Positions 46,078 through 59,629 of a stretch of DNA of 64,000 bases are shown piece after piece. The notes under the pieces were generated by a model, which saw only the letters and a list, made by a program, of their open reading frames with translations, ran no database searches and was not told the DNA's origin. The translations under genes were made by a program, and so were the position numbers. Each line of letters opens with the position of its first letter. Position 1 is the first letter of the stretch. Source of the DNA: Planctomycetota bacterium (GTDB lineage Bacteria > Planctomycetota > Phycisphaerae > UBA1845); contig JACQXM010000015.1 in the NCBI GenBank assembly GCA_016208685.1, positions 1 through 64,000 of the forward strand, given 5' to 3'.

Positions 46078-49000
46078 CTAGCCGCCGGTTCCCAGTTGCG
46101 AAAGCGCGGCCAGCGAATTCTGCTGATCCTGAAGGGCGGCGAGCGAAGACTCCAGCGCCGCGAATTGCGCCTCCAGACGGGCGCGCTTGGCGTCCAGCAG
46201 CACGTTGAGTCGTCCGATCTGCTCCGCCAGAAGGTCCTTCTGATCCTGAAGGAGCTGCTCCTTGCGCGCGATGATTCCGTCGCCGTCGCGGGTTAGGTCG
46301 TCGAAGGCGCTTTGCACTACGGCCCCGAACCCGGTTCCTTCCGCGGTGAACAACCGCTCCACCTGCTCCGGCGAGTCGGCGTACACCTCGCGGAACTGCT
46401 CCTTGTCGAACGTCAAACGGTTGCCGGAGAATCGAACCCCGATGCCGCTGAGCCGGTTGAGCGAGCTCCCCGCGCCCTGAAACGTGCGCGCGGGCAGACG
46501 CGTCAGCCGCTCGCGCACCAGATTCACCGTCGCATCCCCGAACAGCGGACCACGCTCCAGCGTGTCGGCGTTGAAACTGATCGCCTCGTCGATCTGGGCC
46601 TGCGCGTCGTTGTAGCGATCCACGAAAGTCTGCACGCGCTCCACCAGTGCGTCGATGTCCTGAGCCACGGTCACCGTGACGTCCTCGTCGCCGGCGCCCA
46701 GTAGTTGAAGGGATACACCTTCGACCACGCCCTCCAGGGTGTTCGTGGGGCTGGAGACCACCAGCGGGCTGGCTCCGGCGCCGCCCAGCGTCACCACGGC
46801 GTCGCGCGCCTGGGACAGCGTCTCCAGGCCCAGGTCCAGCCCTTCGCCCACGAGCAGCAGTTCGCCCGGCCGGCCGGAGACCGACGAGGTGACGGTGAGG
46901 CTGAAAGGGTTCACGGCGCCGCCGGCGTTCACGACCGACGCGGAAAGCAGGCCCCCGGCAGCGTTGAGCTTGGCAGCGATATCCCGCAGCGTATCGGCGG
47001 CGCCGATGTCGATGCGCGTCTCCAGCGTGCCGTCGATGAAGGCCTCGCCGCTCCGCGCCGTCCCCGCAAGGCGCAGGTCGGCGGCGGCCCGTCCGCCCTC
47101 CTGGTCCTCGACCTTGAGCGCCGCGGTACCGCCGGCGCGGTCCACGAGCAGCAAACCGTCGCCGGTGTCGTTGATCCGCGCCTCGACGGCGCCCGAGGTT
47201 TGCAGGTTGATGACGTCCAGCACTTCGCCCACGGTCTTGAGGTTCGAGGCCAGCACCACGCTGTGCACCACTCCCGCGGAGTCGGTGATGCGGACGGTGC
47301 CCAGGCTTCCGGCGATCGCGGCGTTGATGTCCGTCAGTTTGCTTTGCCGGGAGATGTACTGAAGTTGCAGGTTCCCGCTGTCGGCCCGCGCCCCGGTTGC
47401 CCCGTCGAACGTCCCGGCAATGCCCAGGTCGGCGGCCAGCGTGCCGCCGACATCCGCGACCACGAGCGGACCCGTGCCCCGAGAGCCGTCGGAGAGCACG
47501 ATGCCGCTGCCCGTGCTGTTGATGGCGGCGGTCACCGAGGTGGCGGCGTCGGCATTGATCAGGTCGACGACGTCCTGGAGCGTTGCGGCCTGCGAAAAGT
47601 CGATGGTCGTTGACTGCCCCTGTCCGTCGGTGAGCGCCACCGAGCCGGCGCCAACGCCCCGCCCGCCATTCAGCGAGCGCAGCAGCACGGTGTTGAGTCC
47701 GCCCACCAGCCGGCGGGTCTGGAACGGTCCGCCGTCGGCGCTGAAGGCGGCGCCCGCCAGCCCCAGGTCGGCCGCGGTCGTCGATCCCTGCCCCGCCGAA
47801 ACCGTAACGTTGTTTCCCAGGCCTTGGGCCGCCAGCGTGATGCCCTTGCCGTCGTCGGAGATGCGCGCTCGCACGAAGTCGGCATTGCCCGCGGCGTAGT
47901 TGATGGCGTTGATCACGTCGCCCACGCTGGCCACGCGATACACGTCGCGTCCGCGGATGGCGTTGCTCTCCACGTCCGCGGCGATGCCCAGATCGGCGGC
48001 GGCGAACCCCTGCACGTCTTCCACGATGAAGTGCCCCGCGGTCGTGCCGCCGGCGTTGGTGTTGTCGGTGAGTTGAAAGGCGGAATTGGCCATGGCGATG
48101 CTCACCGAGACCCCGGCGGCCGTGGCGGAGTCGTTGATGCGGCGCCGAACGTCCTCGGCGGTGCGCACCGGCGCCTGGTTGGGGTCTGCAAGGTCGATCT
48201 CTACCGACTTGTGGTTGCGGTCCGTGATGCGGATTCTGCCCAGTCGCACGCCGTTGCCGCTGTTGAGGGCCCGCAGATCAGTGCTCGGCCGCAGGACATC
48301 GGTCAGCGCGACGCCGAAAGTCCCGAACGAGGTGGTGAACGTCAGGTCGTCGAGCGTGGAGCCAATCGCCTGCCGCCCGACGCCGTTCCCGTCGTTGAGC
48401 GCGGAAAGGAGCGTGGCGGGCGTGAGTCGGACCAGGTCGTGTCCGTCGATGCGTGCCCCCGCTGCGTTGGCTGCCAGCCCCAGGTCCCGCGCCGTAAAGC
48501 TGCCCGGCTTGTCGGCGATGATCAGATGGCCGCTTCCGCCGGAGGTGTCCTCGATGACGATGCGATCGCCGGTGGCGCCGTTTTCCGCCAGACCCGTCAC
48601 CCGGGCTCGGACGCCGACGCGGGTTTGAGTGTTGATGGCGGCGAGGATGTCTTCCACGGTGAAGGCCTTGGACAGGTCGACGTCCGCGGAGACGCCGCTA
48701 CGGTCCGTGATGGTAATCGTGCCGCGGCGCACGCCCTCACCGCCGTTAAGGGCCGCCAAGGGTGTCCCGCGATCCACCCGGCCGCGGCCCACCTCGATGG
48801 TGATGCGCCCCGTGCCCACGGGCGTGCGATCGGCGTCGGCATATCCGCGGCTGATGAGCGAATGGTTGGTCACCAGGGAATGCACGCGGAAGGTATGGCT
48901 GCCCGGCGTGGCCGACCGCGAGGCGGTGGCGGTTGCGATCGCCTCGTTGCTGCTCTTCACGGAAAAGCGCTGGAAGAAGGACGGGTCGTCGAAGTCCTTG

Positions 49001-49185
49001 ACCGATTCCTGGAGTGCCAGCAGCTTCCCGGAGAGTTCCAGGATGGCCGCCCGCTGGGTGTCGAGGTTCGTGGATCGCCGTTGCAGGTTCTGCACCGGCC
49101 GGGCTTCGATCGCCATGAGCTGCTCGATGAGCTTGGCGGTGTCGATCCCCGATATCAGCCCTATCCCGCTGGTTATGCCACTCAT
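46078..49185 (-). CDS. fliD: flagellar filament capping protein / hook-associated protein 2, expanded
   Basis: MSGITSGIGLISGIDTAKLIEQLMAIEARPVQNLQRRSTNLDTQRAAILELSGKL; C-terminal LSGIGVRFSGNRLTFDKEQFREVYADSPEQVERLFTA; internal hook-IN-like repeats. Confidence 0.92.
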   Translation of the reverse strand: MSGITSGIGLISGIDTAKLIEQLMAIEARPVQNLQRRSTNLDTQRAAILELSGKLLALQESVKDFDDPSFFQRFSVKSSNEAIATATASRSATPGSHTFRVHSLVTNHSLISRGYADADRTPVGTGRITIEVGRGRVDRGTPLAALNGGEGVRRGTITITDRSGVSADVDLSKAFTVEDILAAINTQTRVGVRARVTGLAENGATGDRIVIEDTSGGSGHLIIADKPGSFTARDLGLAANAAGARIDGHDLVRLTPATLLSALNDGNGVGRQAIGSTLDDLTFTTSFGTFGVALTDVLRPSTDLRALNSGNGVRLGRIRITDRNHKSVEIDLADPNQAPVRTAEDVRRRINDSATAAGVSVSIAMANSAFQLTDNTNAGGTTAGHFIVEDVQGFAAADLGIAADVESNAIRGRDVYRVASVGDVINAINYAAGNADFVRARISDDGKGITLAAQGLGNNVTVSAGQGSTTAADLGLAGAAFSADGGPFQTRRLVGGLNTVLLRSLNGGRGVGAGSVALTDGQGQSTTIDFSQAATLQDVVDLINADAATSVTAAINSTGSGIVLSDGSRGTGPLVVADVGGTLAADLGIAGTFDGATGARADSGNLQLQYISRQSKLTDINAAIAGSLGTVRITDSAGVVHSVVLASNLKTVGEVLDVINLQTSGAVEARINDTGDGLLLVDRAGGTAALKVEDQEGGRAAADLRLAGTARSGEAFIDGTLETRIDIGAADTLRDIAAKLNAAGGLLSASVVNAGGAVNPFSLTVTSSVSGRPGELLLVGEGLDLGLETLSQARDAVVTLGGAGASPLVVSSPTNTLEGVVEGVSLQLLGAGDEDVTVTVAQDIDALVERVQTFVDRYNDAQAQIDEAISFNADTLERGPLFGDATVNLVRERLTRLPARTFQGAGSSLNRLSGIGVRFSGNRLTFDKEQFREVYADSPEQVERLFTAEGTGFGAVVQSAFDDLTRDGDGIIARKEQLLQDQKDLLAEQIGRLNVLLDAKRARLEAQFAALESSLAALQDQQNSLAALSQLGTGG

Positions 49186-49498: not shown

Positions 49499-51178
49499 AT
49501 GATGGGAGCTTCGGCGACGCTGGCTTCGGTCACGGACATCGGCCTGTACATCAACCCGATCAAGGCGGCGGTGGTGGTGGTCCTGCTCTTTGCCTGGGCC
49601 GCCGCGGTGCAGTGGATCGACCGCGACACCGACAAGGTCAAGACTAAGCGCGAACATTGGAACATGATCGTGATGGCCGGCTCCTTCGTCGGCTTTCTCG
49701 TGCTCTTCATCCCCCCCTGGAGCGGCGTCCTGTTCGTCGGCGGCGTGATTGCCTGGCTGCTGATCACCGGGGGCGCGGTGGTCGCCTATGTGGTGCACCG
49801 CAACAGCCGCGTGGTTCCCGCGGCACGGGTACTTACGTTAACCCACTTCAAGCGGCTGGCGCGGGGCGGCGCCGATAAGAAGAAAGCCACCACCGACAAG
49901 GGCATCCGCGTGCGGCTGGCGGATCACAAGGGCAACGCGCTCGCGTCCCCGGAGGACCCCGACGAAGCGAAGTCGTTCAATCTGGTTCAGGACTTCCTTC
50001 ACGAACTCCTTTGGCGGCGGGCCTCGGATGCCGAGCTGCGCCCGGAGAAGGAGCGATACAGCCTCTTCTACCGCATCGACGGCGTCGAAACACCCAACAG
50101 TGAGGGCATCGCCACCGAGGACGGCGAACGGATCATCCGCTACCTGAAGCGCGCCGCGGGGGTGAACGTGGAGGAGATTCGCCGCCCACAGAGCGGGCGC
50201 ATACGCACGGCGCTGCTGAGTCACGCCGGGGATCTGGGCATCACCGAGGTTCGTACTTCGGGCAGCACGGCCGGAGAACGCCTGCAACTACAGCTTCAGG
50301 CTGGCGCATCGCTGCTGCGACTGCACGAATTGGGCATGGCGCCGCAGCGGCTGGAGGGCCTCAAGAAGGAGGTGCTCGCCAAGCACACCGGCCTGCTGCT
50401 GGTCAGCGCCCCACCGCAAAACGGGCTGACCACCACCCAGTACGCCATCCTGCGCGGGCATGACGCCTACATGCACAACATCCACACCATCGAGCGTCGC
50501 CGCCTGGTGGAACTGGACAACATCACGCAACAGATCTACGAAGGCAGCAACACCGACGTGAATTACGCCCGCATGCTGCAATCCATCCTGCGGCGCGAGC
50601 CGGATATCGTCATGGTAGGGGAATGCGAGGACCGCGAGACGGCGCAGATCGCCACCCGGGCCGCGGCGGACGACCGCAAGATCTACCTGGGCATCCCCGC
50701 CCGTGACAGCTTCGAGGCCCTCTCCAAGTACCTGACGCACGTGGAGGACAACGCCCTGGCCGCCAAGGCGCTGCGCGGCGTGCTCAACCAGCGGCTGGTG
50801 CGGATTCTGTGCCCCGAGTGTCGCGAGGCCTTCAAGCCGGACGAGGCGACCCTCAAGAAGCTCAACCTCCCCGCGGACAAGATCGAGAAGTTCTACCGGC
50901 CGCCGACGGAACCCAAGTTCGACAAAAAGGGCAAGCAGATTCTGTGTCCCAAGTGCCAGGGCACCGGTTACTCCGGCCGGGTGGGAATCTTCGAACTGCT
51001 GATCGTTGATCCCGCGGTCCAGGCGATGATCGCCGAGGGTGCGGCGGTGAACAAGGTGAAGGCGCAGTGCCGTAAGAACAAGATGTACTACCTTCAGGAA
51101 GAGGGACTGCTGAAGGTGATCGACGGCACCACCAGCATGCAGGAAATCCTCCGCTGCCTGAAGCTGGGGGAGAAGTGA
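49499..51178 (+). CDS. membrane-anchored GspE/PilB-like (T2SS/T4P ATPase family) protein with degenerate nucleotide-binding motifs
   Basis: N-terminal TM segments; SLFYRIDGV; ILRREPDIVMVGECEDRETAQIATRAA; LNQRLVRILCPECREAF...CPKCQGTGYSGRVGIFELL. Walker A position reads APPQNGLTTT rather than GPTGSGKTTT. Confidence 0.88.
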   Translation: MMGASATLASVTDIGLYINPIKAAVVVVLLFAWAAAVQWIDRDTDKVKTKREHWNMIVMAGSFVGFLVLFIPPWSGVLFVGGVIAWLLITGGAVVAYVVHRNSRVVPAARVLTLTHFKRLARGGADKKKATTDKGIRVRLADHKGNALASPEDPDEAKSFNLVQDFLHELLWRRASDAELRPEKERYSLFYRIDGVETPNSEGIATEDGERIIRYLKRAAGVNVEEIRRPQSGRIRTALLSHAGDLGITEVRTSGSTAGERLQLQLQAGASLLRLHELGMAPQRLEGLKKEVLAKHTGLLLVSAPPQNGLTTTQYAILRGHDAYMHNIHTIERRRLVELDNITQQIYEGSNTDVNYARMLQSILRREPDIVMVGECEDRETAQIATRAAADDRKIYLGIPARDSFEALSKYLTHVEDNALAAKALRGVLNQRLVRILCPECREAFKPDEATLKKLNLPADKIEKFYRPPTEPKFDKKGKQILCPKCQGTGYSGRVGIFELLIVDPAVQAMIAEGAAVNKVKAQCRKNKMYYLQEEGLLKVIDGTTSMQEILRCLKLGEK

Positions 51179-51254
51179 CCGCGGCGGGGAAGTACCGCAC
51201 AGCGGAGGGATTGCCCGCCAGGGGCGGATCGGCCGGCGGCCGGCAGGTGTACTT

Positions 51255-53123
51255 ATGTGGCTATCGCTGCTGATGCTGGTGCTGGTGCTCGGCGTCGCCT
51301 TCTTTCAGTCGACGCTGGGGTTCTTCAGCGCTCTGATCATGACGGTGCTGACCCTGTGTTGCGCCGCCGCCGCCGTGGGCACGCACGAATGGGTGGCCAT
51401 CAACTGGCTGGCGCCCCTGTGGAAGCCGGACTTCGCCCACGCCATCGCCCTGGCGGCGATCTTCGGCGTGCCGCTGATTGCCTTCCGTTTCACCTTCGAT
51501 CAGCTCATACGCCGCGCCTGCCTGCTTCCGGCATGGGTGGACCGCATCGGCGGCGCCTTCTGCGGCATCATCACCGCGCTCACCCTGGTGGGGGTCATGG
51601 CGCACGCCCTGCAAGCCGTGCCTTTCGGCACCACGATCCTGGGCTTCGCCCGCGTAGAGGTTCCCGCAAAAACCCAGCCGGAGGGCGGTGATCCGCCCAA
51701 ACCGCCGGATGTGGCGGCGCCGGAGCGGGAACTTTGGCTTTCCCCCGACCGTTTCGCGATCGGCGTCGCCTCGCTGCTTTCGTCGGGGGTGTTCAGCGGA
51801 GACAAGCTGCTCGCCGCCGAGAACCCCGACCCGGTGCAGGCGCTGGGGTGGGTGAACACCACTCACCCCGAGGTGTCGCGCGTGGCGCAGCCCAACTCCA
51901 TCGCCGTGGTGCGTTCCGGCGTGGTGTCGTACGTCTATCACTACACGGAAGGCGACCCGCGGCGCGGGGAACAGACCAAGTACGACGCCGTATCACCCAA
52001 GGCCGGGCACGAGTTCCGCATGTTGCGCGTGGCCCTTCGCGACGAAGCGCGGGATGCGCGCAAGTCGCACGTCTTCACCATCCGTCAGTTCCGCCTGGTC
52101 GGCACCCAAGGGCCCGACGGCCCCCTGGCGCAGTACTTCCCTACCGCCATCCAGCAGGAGGACGCCACGCAGACCACCAACCGTCACATCTGCACCAAGA
52201 TGACGAACTGGGGCAAGTGGCCGGTGGTCGACGAGATCTACGCGCCGCGCGACGAATCCAACGAGGTCGAGGTCGTGTACGAACTCCCCACCGCCTTCAA
52301 GCCCATGTACCTCGAGTACAAGCGCGGGGCGCGGTTCGCGCTGGCGTCGTTTGACATCAAGAGCCGCGACGCGGGGAACCGTCCCAGTGCGGGCGAGACA
52401 GAGACGCCGCATGGCGGAACCACTGCGGCTGCCGGGCAGCCCGCCGGCGGCTCCGCAGCGCCGGCACCGGCTCCGGCGCCACCCCCGGACCGCCGGCGCC
52501 GGCGCGGCGAGCCCGAGACCGTGCCCACCACCGGCTCCGGCGGCGTGCGCCCCGTCCGGGCGCAGACCGGCGGGTCGACGTTCGGCGACGAACTGCCGCT
52601 GACGCTTACCTCGTACCGGTCGCTGAAGGACCTTAACCTGGAGAAGGGCAAACTCGGTACCGGCCACCTGGTCGCCATGCTGGACGAGCAGGATGGCGGC
52701 ACGCAGCCGCCGGTCAGCCACTTCGCCGTCCCCGCCGACAAGCGGCTGCTCCAGCTCAGCGTAAGCCGCATGCAGGCCAAGAGCGGCATCGGCAAGGTGC
52801 TGGACCTCGCCGCCACCACGGCGCAGTCCTACTTCGTGCAGGACACCAACGGCACGCGCTACTCGATGATCGGCAAGTACGTGCGCGCCACCGTCGAGGG
52901 CGTCCCCATGCTGGAAGTGCAGTATTTCCCCGAACAGGCGGGTTCGATCGGCGGGCTGGGGCCGTTCCAGGACATCAAGGACCGCCATCTGCAAAGCGGC
53001 GAGTACGATTACGTGCTGCTCTTCCTGGTAGATCCCGGGGCCAATATCGTGACCCTCGCCGCCGGCGGGTCTGCTGCCCGCCAGGACGACCTGAGCGGCG
53101 AGAACCTCACCGCGCCGCCGTGA
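51255..53123 (+). CDS. multi-TM N-terminal (CvpA-like) protein with large C-terminal soluble domain
   Basis: MWLSLLMLVLVLGVAFFQSTLGFFSALIMTVLTLCCAAAAVG...ALTLVGVMAHALQAVP; same strand, 76 bp downstream of the GspE-like gene. Confidence 0.75.
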   Translation: MWLSLLMLVLVLGVAFFQSTLGFFSALIMTVLTLCCAAAAVGTHEWVAINWLAPLWKPDFAHAIALAAIFGVPLIAFRFTFDQLIRRACLLPAWVDRIGGAFCGIITALTLVGVMAHALQAVPFGTTILGFARVEVPAKTQPEGGDPPKPPDVAAPERELWLSPDRFAIGVASLLSSGVFSGDKLLAAENPDPVQALGWVNTTHPEVSRVAQPNSIAVVRSGVVSYVYHYTEGDPRRGEQTKYDAVSPKAGHEFRMLRVALRDEARDARKSHVFTIRQFRLVGTQGPDGPLAQYFPTAIQQEDATQTTNRHICTKMTNWGKWPVVDEIYAPRDESNEVEVVYELPTAFKPMYLEYKRGARFALASFDIKSRDAGNRPSAGETETPHGGTTAAAGQPAGGSAAPAPAPAPPPDRRRRRGEPETVPTTGSGGVRPVRAQTGGSTFGDELPLTLTSYRSLKDLNLEKGKLGTGHLVAMLDEQDGGTQPPVSHFAVPADKRLLQLSVSRMQAKSGIGKVLDLAATTAQSYFVQDTNGTRYSMIGKYVRATVEGVPMLEVQYFPEQAGSIGGLGPFQDIKDRHLQSGEYDYVLLFLVDPGANIVTLAAGGSAARQDDLSGENLTAPP

Positions 53124-53168: not shown

Positions 53169-53429
53169 CTACGGTTCGATGAGCCGCTCGCGAATCGCCC
53201 AACGCGTCAACAGAGCGAGATTGGTCAAGCCCAGCTTCCGCGCCGCCTGCTGGCGGTGCGTCTCGGCCGTCCGCGGCGAAATCGACAATCGGCGGGCAAT
53301 GTCGGCCAGCGAGTGACCCTCCGCCAGCATGCGAACCACCTGAAGCTGGCGGGGTGTCAAATCCGGCAGTTTTTTCCCTTGCACCCGGGCACCTCCCGAA
53401 CAGCGCGCACCTCGCGCGCCAATGTTCAA
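53169..53429 (-). CDS. single-domain LuxR/GerE-type HTH regulator
   Basis: LTPRQLQVVRMLAEGHSLADIARRLSISPRTAETHRQQAARKLGLTNLALLTRWAI. Confidence 0.92.
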   Translation of the reverse strand: MNIGARGARCSGGARVQGKKLPDLTPRQLQVVRMLAEGHSLADIARRLSISPRTAETHRQQAARKLGLTNLALLTRWAIRERLIEP

Positions 53430-57328: not shown

Positions 57329-59419
57329 CTACCTGCCTCCGCCAACCAGCTCGTCCGCCAGCGGATCGGCGTCGTACACGTTGCGCAGGGCCTCGATGAT
57401 CGCCCGCGCGTCCAGGCACACCGCCCGCGCCTGCTCGTCGGTGTAGGCGATATCCCAGACCAGCCCCTGGAGGTTGCCGTCGAAGACGATGCCGATGACC
57501 TCGCCGGCGCGGTTGATGGTAGGGCTGCCGGAGTTGCCGCCGATGATGTCCGCGGTGGAGACGAAATTGAACGGCGCATCCGGTTTCAGCCGCGCCTTGC
57601 GGTCCAGCCAGCGCTGCGGCAGCGCGAACGGCGGCTTGCCGCCGCGCTCCTGATGCCGCTGATAGAGCCCGGCGAACGTGGTGAAGGCGGGGACGGGGCG
57701 GCCCGACTCGACATATCCGCGAACGGCGCCGAAGGAGAGGCGGAGCGTCCCGGTCGCATCCGGCGCCAGGTTCTCGCCCTGGACGGCGAACTGTGCCGCG
57801 GCGATGCGGGCGTAGTTCTGCCGTTCCACGCTCTCGATCTCATCCTCGTACAACTTGCGCAGGCGGCGGATTTCCGGGGCCAGGTCCGCGGCGAAGCGGA
57901 TCATGGGGTCCGTGGATTCCGCGATCGCCTGGGTGCCGCCGGCGGCAAGCCGTTTGCGCACCTCGACATCCTTGAGCTTCGTGCCGCTGACGAGCTGCTC
58001 CGCGCGGCCTCGCGGCGACTGCCCGGCCAGCATGCGGACTAACAGAGGATCATCGCCCCCGGCGGTCTCCGCCAGGTAAGAAAGGCCGCTGGTGATGCGG
58101 TCCATCTCCAGCTCGTCGTAGATGGGCGCGGGCGAGAAGAGCCGCAGGTAGAGCGTGTCCAGGGCCGCCTCCTGATACTCCTCCAGCCGCTCGGCGTTGG
58201 GTTTGTCCTTCTCCTCGGCCAGGAACACCAGGTGCCGCGCGATGCGATACAGGTCGGAGCGGATCACTTCGCGGCGCCGCTCCAGGGCGGAATAGCGCAG
58301 GTAGTGTTCCCGGTGCTTGCGCTGCGCCTCGCTGACACGGTCCCAGGCATCGCCCCATTGGGCGTGGAATTCGGGATTGGCGTCGACGGCCACCCGCAGT
58401 GCTTTTTCCGCACTTACCTTGGCAGTCATGATCTGCGGATCGTGCAGCCCGGCGAGGATGCCGGTGAAGGCCTTGCGGGAGTTCTGCGCCCCATATAGGT
58501 CGCCGGTGGCGATGCGGGCGTTCTCCTCGCTGCGCGCCGAGAAACTGAGTAGCTGCACCTCGCGGCGCCACAGCCGCTGGAGGATGACGGGGTAGCTCAC
58601 GTCGCGCAGGAACTTGAGGTGATCGACGGTGTACTGGCGCTGGGTGCGCGCCGGGTGTCCGACGATGAAGTTCAGGTCGCCCTCGGCGGCGCCGGTGCCG
58701 CTCCACTTCAGGTAGTGCTCCGGATGCAGGGGTTTGCCGTTTTCGTAGATGCGGAAGAAGCTGACGTCCAGGTCGAAGCGGGGGTACTCGAAGTTGTCGT
58801 TGTCGCCGCCGTAGAAAGCGATGGCCTGTTCCGGGGCCATCACCAGGCGGACGTCGGTGAAGCGGCGGTAGCGATAGAGGTGATAGCGCGCCCCGTGGTA
58901 GAGCGTGACCACGTCGCTCTTGAGGCCGGTGGCGTCCTGGGACTCCTTCTCGATCTCGGCGATGCGCCGGCGTCGGGCGGCGTTGGCTTCCGCGGGCGAG
59001 GCGCCCGGCGCCGCGGCGGACTGCACGCGCTGTGTGACATCCTCGGTGGACCAGAGAATCTGCACCTCCAGGTCCTTGCAGGGCAGCTCTTCCTCCCGCG
59101 TTCGGGCGTAGAAGCCGGTTTCCAGCAGGTTGTGCTCGGGCGTGGAGAGTTTCTCGATGTCATCGGAGCCCACGTGGTGGTTGGTCATGACCAGCCCGTC
59201 GGCAGAGACCACCGACGCCGACCCGCCGCCCCCGAAGCGCACGCAGGATTTCTGCACGTGTTCCAGCCAGGCCGGCGTGGGCTCGAAGCCGTAGCGTTCC
59301 TTGAGGGCCTGGATCGGCGGCTTGTTCAGCAGCCACATGCCCTCGTCGGCCGCCGCGGCGGAAGTAAGGATCAACGCCGCCGCGACGATCGCGGCCCGGC
59401 GGACGCGCTGCGTTTGCAC
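57329..59419 (-). CDS. S46-family dipeptidyl peptidase (DPP7/DPP11-like)
   Basis: DEGMWLLNKPPIQALKERYGFEPTPAWLEHVQKSCVRFGGGGSASVVSADGLVMTNHHVG; IIGGNSGSPTINRAGEVIGIVFDGN. Confidence 0.95.
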   Translation of the reverse strand: MQTQRVRRAAIVAAALILTSAAAADEGMWLLNKPPIQALKERYGFEPTPAWLEHVQKSCVRFGGGGSASVVSADGLVMTNHHVGSDDIEKLSTPEHNLLETGFYARTREEELPCKDLEVQILWSTEDVTQRVQSAAAPGASPAEANAARRRRIAEIEKESQDATGLKSDVVTLYHGARYHLYRYRRFTDVRLVMAPEQAIAFYGGDNDNFEYPRFDLDVSFFRIYENGKPLHPEHYLKWSGTGAAEGDLNFIVGHPARTQRQYTVDHLKFLRDVSYPVILQRLWRREVQLLSFSARSEENARIATGDLYGAQNSRKAFTGILAGLHDPQIMTAKVSAEKALRVAVDANPEFHAQWGDAWDRVSEAQRKHREHYLRYSALERRREVIRSDLYRIARHLVFLAEEKDKPNAERLEEYQEAALDTLYLRLFSPAPIYDELEMDRITSGLSYLAETAGGDDPLLVRMLAGQSPRGRAEQLVSGTKLKDVEVRKRLAAGGTQAIAESTDPMIRFAADLAPEIRRLRKLYEDEIESVERQNYARIAAAQFAVQGENLAPDATGTLRLSFGAVRGYVESGRPVPAFTTFAGLYQRHQERGGKPPFALPQRWLDRKARLKPDAPFNFVSTADIIGGNSGSPTINRAGEVIGIVFDGNLQGLVWDIAYTDEQARAVCLDARAIIEALRNVYDADPLADELVGGGR

Positions 59420-59629
59420 GGTTCGCACTCCTGTTGGTGACAGACTCAACCCACGAAAACCGCGATTATGTGCCCAAACCCCGGGGCTGGAAAGCGAGGC
59501 GCATGCGTTCGGTGTGCAGGGCGGCGATGGGCGTCCCGACGGCATCCCCACGGAGCCACCTGCGGAAAGGACTCGATGGCATGGTGCCGCGTGGCGCAAA
59601 GGCGCGGCGCGCCGGAGCGCCCGGGCGGC

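Follow-up and report, generated by a model that had tools for sequence, protein, structure and literature searches.

In Vibrio cholerae, the pilus ATPase PilU retracts pili only when PilT is present, and does so even when that PilT is the Walker A mutant K136A (PMC6821130). In Escherichia coli, the membrane protein CvpA is needed for deoxycholate resistance and has been proposed to be a transporter (PMC6705877). Among the papers searched, none joins planctomycetes, PilT and CvpA; CvpA, PilT and type IV pili came together only in a Pectobacterium genome survey.

Here we describe two adjacent genes that bring a GspE/PilB-family protein and a CvpA-like protein together. They lie in a 64,000-nucleotide stretch of DNA (the window) from a planctomycete of the class Phycisphaerae.

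49499-51178, forward strand: membrane-anchored, putatively inactive GspE/PilB protein (pseudo-GspE), 559 amino acids; PF00437 at 170 bits, Foldseek match to the core of T. thermophilus PilF
51179-51254, forward strand: intergenic gap of 76 bp, in which no intrinsic terminator was found
51255-53123, forward strand: CvpA-like membrane protein, 622 amino acids, with a large extracytoplasmic part; PF02674 in 26 of 33 orthologues, this member sub-threshold

A gene pair under purifying selection

The first-pass annotation of this DNA had described two same-strand reading frames about 75 bp apart, which is the arrangement that we recovered. Third-position G+C is 0.86 in the pseudo-GspE gene and 0.88 in the CvpA-like gene, so both look coding, and dN/dS between two congeneric relatives (0.066 and 0.061, respectively) indicates purifying selection on both. 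An Rfam search around the pair returned no RNA element, and a scan for sigma-70 promoters found none, a result no different from chance.

Divergent to the pair lies a gene for a FliD-type flagellar cap protein of 1035 amino acids (46078-49185, reverse strand), in which a long central insert separates FliD_N from FliD_C. Convergent with it is an 86-residue reading frame (53169-53429, reverse strand) that by eye resembles a LuxR-type helix-turn-helix (DIARRLSISPRTAETHRQQAARKL). The window also encodes a Peptidase S46 family protein (57329-59599, reverse strand; PF10459, 682 bits).

A GspE fold on a membrane anchor

The T2SSE domain of pseudo-GspE scores above the gathering threshold of PF00437 and spans profile positions 5-370 of 370, and the protein falls below the cut-off of the GspE equivalog TIGR02533 (229 bits; cut-off 630). 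An AlphaFold2 model built with 31 orthologues (mean pLDDT 85) has the core of the PilF/PilB structures (Foldseek to 5oiu, T. thermophilus PilF: E 9.6e-39, TM-score 0.91 by target length). A segment with three predicted transmembrane (TM) helices stands in place of the N-terminal domain of ordinary GspE. A search for MshEN gave no match in pseudo-GspE, in which a soluble N-terminus of the MshEN/N1E type is absent; the ordinary paralogues of the same genome have MshEN.

49556-49795, forward strand: three N-terminal TM helices, residues 20-39, 55-72 and 79-99, from hydropathy and charge over 31 orthologues and from the model helices
50810-50956, forward strand: zinc-binding cysteines, CxxC...CxxC (C438, C441, C483, C486), in 108/108 orthologues and 17/20 distant in-class loci

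These helices, which account for the hydrophobic N-terminal segments picked out at first pass, have mean Kyte-Doolittle values of 1.7-2.1 across the 31 orthologues, and the model places helices at residues 20-47, 51-70 and 78-104 of the N-terminal part (about 105 residues). Because segments rich in Lys and Arg lie between TM1 and TM2 and after TM3 in these orthologues, the sequences suggest an N-out, C-in topology. Arg228 is conserved in all 108 Phycisphaerae orthologues; some zinc cysteines are gone in 3 of the 20 distant loci.

Loss of the active site

The motifs that characterize TIGR02533 (Walker A GxxGxGK[ST], Asp box and His box) are all absent from pseudo-GspE by motif comparison.

50408-50434, forward strand: degenerate Walker A, with Leu310 in place of Lys; Lys in 0/108 orthologues
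50486-50506, forward strand: degenerate Asp box, TIERRRL(V) for TIEDPVEY; Asp replaced by Arg or Lys in 71/108
50603-50638, forward strand: altered Walker B, DIVMVGECEDRE; Glu kept in the window protein, variable in the family (Glu in 37 and Asp in 35 of 108)
50666-50707, forward strand: lost His box, with Arg393 in place of His; Lys or Arg in 95/108

The Walker A motif reads SAPPQNGLTTT for the usual GPTGSGKTTT; the P-loop is LVSAPPQNGLTTTQ, compared with GPTGSGKTTTLY or GPTGSGKSTTLY in the genome's own six GspE/PilB paralogues, and the His box, usually TGHLVFSTLHTN, is DDRKIYLGIPAR. The Walker A lysine occurs in none of the 108 Phycisphaerae orthologues; by contrast, all 8 ordinary paralogues have it, as do all 10 TM-anchored relatives taken from other families. 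Its site is taken by Val (56), Leu (22), Ile (14), Arg (5), Ala (4), Met (3), Thr (3) or Gln (1), and the preceding Gly is invariant. The lysine is also missing from 20 of 20 further loci in distant families of the class, giving 0/128 overall.

Because the lysine is never present while this Gly, Arg228 and the zinc cysteines stay in the 108 orthologues, the GspE-like protein of Phycisphaerae is, as judged from its sequence, a conserved pseudo-ATPase. Calling it an ATPase, as the first-pass annotation did, was wrong for this lineage, in which the catalytic site is destroyed. The absence of the lysine from all 128 sequences and the dN/dS of about 0.07 argue that the loss was selected and is not decay. 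A pseudogene or an assembly error was ruled out by the same pattern (0/108 and 0/20 over many genomes) and by dN/dS. The Lys and Arg residues that now occupy the former Asp-box Asp (residue 333, 50495-50497) and His-box His (residue 393, 50675-50677) could serve to bind an anion or take part in a salt bridge.

The CvpA-like partner

The AlphaFold model of the second protein (mean pLDDT 86) combines a four-helix membrane region with two predicted beta-sandwich domains.

51258-51614, forward strand: four TM helices, residues 2-120, the CvpA-like region, from structure prediction and charge over orthologues
51876-52355, forward strand: first predicted beta-sandwich domain, residues ~208-367, pLDDT mostly >90
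52386-52538, forward strand: disordered linker, residues 378-428, pLDDT <50
52548-53096, forward strand: second predicted beta-sandwich domain, residues ~432-614, from the AlphaFold model and structural comparison

Four predicted TM helices and a large C-terminal part agree with the 4-5 helices and large C-terminal domain expected for the 622-residue protein. The loop between TM3 and TM4 is rich in Lys and Arg, which predicts that the C-terminus lies outside. The CvpA-like assignment finds its backing in the family: the window protein itself scores 17.2 bits against PF02674, under the gathering cut-off of 29.3, and 26/33 orthologues match it (E up to 0.05; best 3.7e-11). No purF context was seen for the gene. 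Foldseek with the C-terminal domains returned nothing at E 0.001, and the best VIA-align result, the first beta domain against B. subtilis YcdA (4r4g) in a test for a DUF4352-like or Ig-like fold, gave Z 6.3 (105 aligned at rmsd 3.8), a value that chance arrangements also reach. With no Foldseek match and a middling Z, a fold identity for these domains was dropped.

Gene order and the PilT-type gene

Adjacency in related genomes had been set beforehand as a check that could refute the pair. The CvpA-like protein is present in 38 of 40 relatives and pseudo-GspE adjoins it in nearly all. When gene order was counted with profiles of the three proteins across 158 distinct loci with a TM-anchored GspE (TM-GspE), a CvpA-like gene followed on the same strand in 148 (median gap 52 bp). 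A PilT-type gene lies immediately upstream of TM-GspE in 116 of these loci, and all three genes occur together in 109. The two-gene module first proposed is therefore real as a conserved pair and incomplete as a module, its widespread form being three genes.

In all 116 distinct cassette-type PilTs that were scored, the T2SSE domain retains Walker A, the Asp box and the His box in full, and the loss of the active site is therefore specific to the middle gene. Because an intact PilT stands directly upstream in 116/158 loci, the ancestral unit is, on this reading of gene order, PilT – TM-GspE – CvpA. In the window genome the cassette PilT orthologue is unlinked, on another contig (C6:212982-214145, 684 bits). 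Seven genomes of the family of the window genome keep the pair, and no cassette-type PilT was found in them (best matches ~320-410 bits; true orthologues >540). These cases imply that PilT is not strictly required or has been replaced by a paralogue.

One locus has an additional intact GspE between PilT and pseudo-GspE (L070:5012-6733, forward strand), with an N-terminus that looks FHA-like; it was seen once. Genes for hisF, a lepA-like and an mgtE-like protein, identified from their sequences only, recur beside 15-20 of 100 loci and are not thought to be functional parts of the module. PADLOC gave no match, and a defence system was dropped on that ground.

Pseudo-GspE is the sole T2SSE gene of the 290-kb contig that holds the window, and a search of this contig for PilC/GspF, secretin and PilM found none, in line with the first-pass observation that no gspD/F/G or pil genes are visible nearby. 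Adjacency, kept in 148 of 158 loci, did not refute the pair, and a conserved membrane module outside a T2SS/T4P locus is supported. Elsewhere the window genome encodes six intact GspE/PilB paralogues, GspF/PilC and several secretins, as well as five further, shorter T2SSE-family matches, of which four also match the PilT query. We therefore did not find a T2SS/T4P locus elsewhere that lacks only this ATPase, and an ordinary T2SS ATPase split from its own locus is ruled out, as the T2SS/T4P parts have ATPases of their own. A stand-alone complex is only a candidate reading: PilC/GspF platform proteins were present in each of the 78 genomes with the module that were tested, and an ordinary pilus or T2SS may be what the module serves.

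Distribution and evolution

In a phylum-wide scan of near-complete genomes, TM-GspE matched 176 of 393, nearly always in single copy; all sampled Phycisphaerae genomes matched except four below threshold, and the named records of relatives are Phycisphaerae. Among 80 retained loci, one has an Actinomycetota label (L123, record OTbin.97) and contains the whole module, PilT – pseudo-GspE – CvpA. That module is otherwise seen only in Planctomycetota, and a binning error probably explains the label.

In other planctomycete families (L171-L180, L191, L195, L205-L210) the TM-anchored GspE retains the whole of its active site, and its usual neighbours are PilT, a short CvpA-like gene or both. Outside the class, the Walker A lysine is also missing from a second group (L196-L204), and L192 and L194 keep GK[ST] with degenerate Asp and/or His boxes. 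FastTree trees, whether or not the active-site columns were included, place L192 as sister to the class sequences (joint-clade support 1.0) and L196-L204 in a clade of their own (1.0). As the tree places them apart, the sequences indicate at least two losses of the lysine, provided that it was never regained. The TM-anchored forms have the TM domain pattern W39, D43, W54, R101, N102 in common, and their monophyly relative to ordinary GspE has moderate support only (0.69-0.71).

Possible roles of the module

Our preferred reading, held tentatively and at somewhat less than an even chance, is that the pair forms the membrane core of a three-gene planctomycete module in which a catalytically dead ring serves as a membrane-tethered adaptor for a PilT-type motor and is coupled to the CvpA-like protein. 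It builds on the fold, the predicted TM segments, the catalytic loss under purifying selection, the gene order and the intact PilT neighbour observed here. An adaptor ring is suggested because an intact and a dead, membrane-tethered T2SSE protein are encoded beside a membrane protein with periplasmic domains. As judged from its motifs, the middle protein of Phycisphaerae would no longer bind and hydrolyse ATP normally, and would most likely form a membrane-tethered ring. The PilT-type motor could dock onto this ring from the cytosol, by analogy with PilU on PilT, and the CvpA-like protein might receive movement or conformational signals from the ring; its periplasmic beta domains may bind a component of the envelope or of a pilus. 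An effect on pilus retraction or transport may follow. The seven family genomes in which no cassette-type PilT was found, and the unlinked gene of the window genome, count against this reading. As pilT is the sole conserved pilus gene of the module, the link to pili rests on homology.

Pseudo-GspE might instead join, or stack on, the ordinary GspE/PilB ring of the T4P or T2SS of the cell as a regulatory subunit. The presence of PilC/GspF in 78/78 genomes, the six intact paralogues and several secretins of the window genome and the retained ATPase core fold are all compatible with this, but most loci link a PilT-type and not a PilB-type gene (the extra intact GspE with the FHA-like N-terminus occurs once, in L070), and a TM tether limits free exchange with soluble rings, so we regard this as rather unlikely. 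We give the same low standing to an ATP-independent structural or transport complex in which pseudo-GspE serves the CvpA-like protein as a plug or scaffold on the cytosolic side and the linkage to PilT is a matter of history. The seven genomes that keep the pair without a cassette-type PilT would fit, as would E. coli CvpA, which deoxycholate resistance requires and for which a transporter role was proposed (PMC6705877), although the PilT linkage holds across several families and for intact and dead versions alike.

A nucleotide sensor with unusual binding, in which basic residues at the former Asp and His boxes (71/108 and 95/108) replace the missing lysine, accords with the invariant Gly before the lysine site. 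Walker B Glu is kept in only 37/108, however, which makes hydrolysis unlikely, and we consider a sensor improbable. That pseudo-GspE is a decaying, functionless copy, as its lost catalytic motifs alone might suggest, is refuted by a dN/dS of 0.066, its single copy in nearly all genomes of the class and zinc cysteines in 108/108, and has a negligible chance of being right.

The adaptor reading can be extended to a phylum-specific machine that works apart from any pilus: what was once a pilus-extension ATPase would now be a membrane ring, independent of nucleotides, linking a PilT motor with a CvpA-type channel that has periplasmic domains; we think this doubtful. The adaptor reading, if it holds, would establish a natural, class-wide pseudo-ATPase of the GspE/PilB family fixed in the membrane beside an intact PilT motor, and would show in nature the dead ring as adaptor that has so far only been engineered in Vibrio. 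CvpA, a family without a settled function, would gain a conserved motor partner, and the coupling of motors to the planctomycete envelope could be studied with a defined gene set. The complete-site relatives in sister families allow living and dead forms of this protein to be compared.

Comparison with known systems

The module pairs two proteins of the T2SSE family, as does PilT–PilU of V. cholerae (PMC6821130), and here too a catalytically dead one may be needed by the other. The dead ring of Vibrio is engineered and soluble, whereas the putative planctomycete one is natural, PilB-type and membrane-anchored. With the GspE/PilB extension ATPases, pseudo-GspE shares the N2 domain and C-terminal RecA-like core, the zinc tetracysteine domain and Arg at 228; unlike them, it has three TM helices for a soluble N-terminus, has lost the Walker A Lys and the Asp and His boxes, and is encoded outside a T2SS/T4P locus. 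The complete-site TM-anchored GspEs have the N-terminal TM domain and gene neighbours in common with it, but their active site is whole and, among those listed, their CvpA-like frame is only ~200-290 amino acids long. The CvpA-like protein, finally, has the four-TM N-terminal region of CvpA (PF02674), to which it adds a large extension of two predicted beta-sandwich domains, the window member being sub-threshold for the family.
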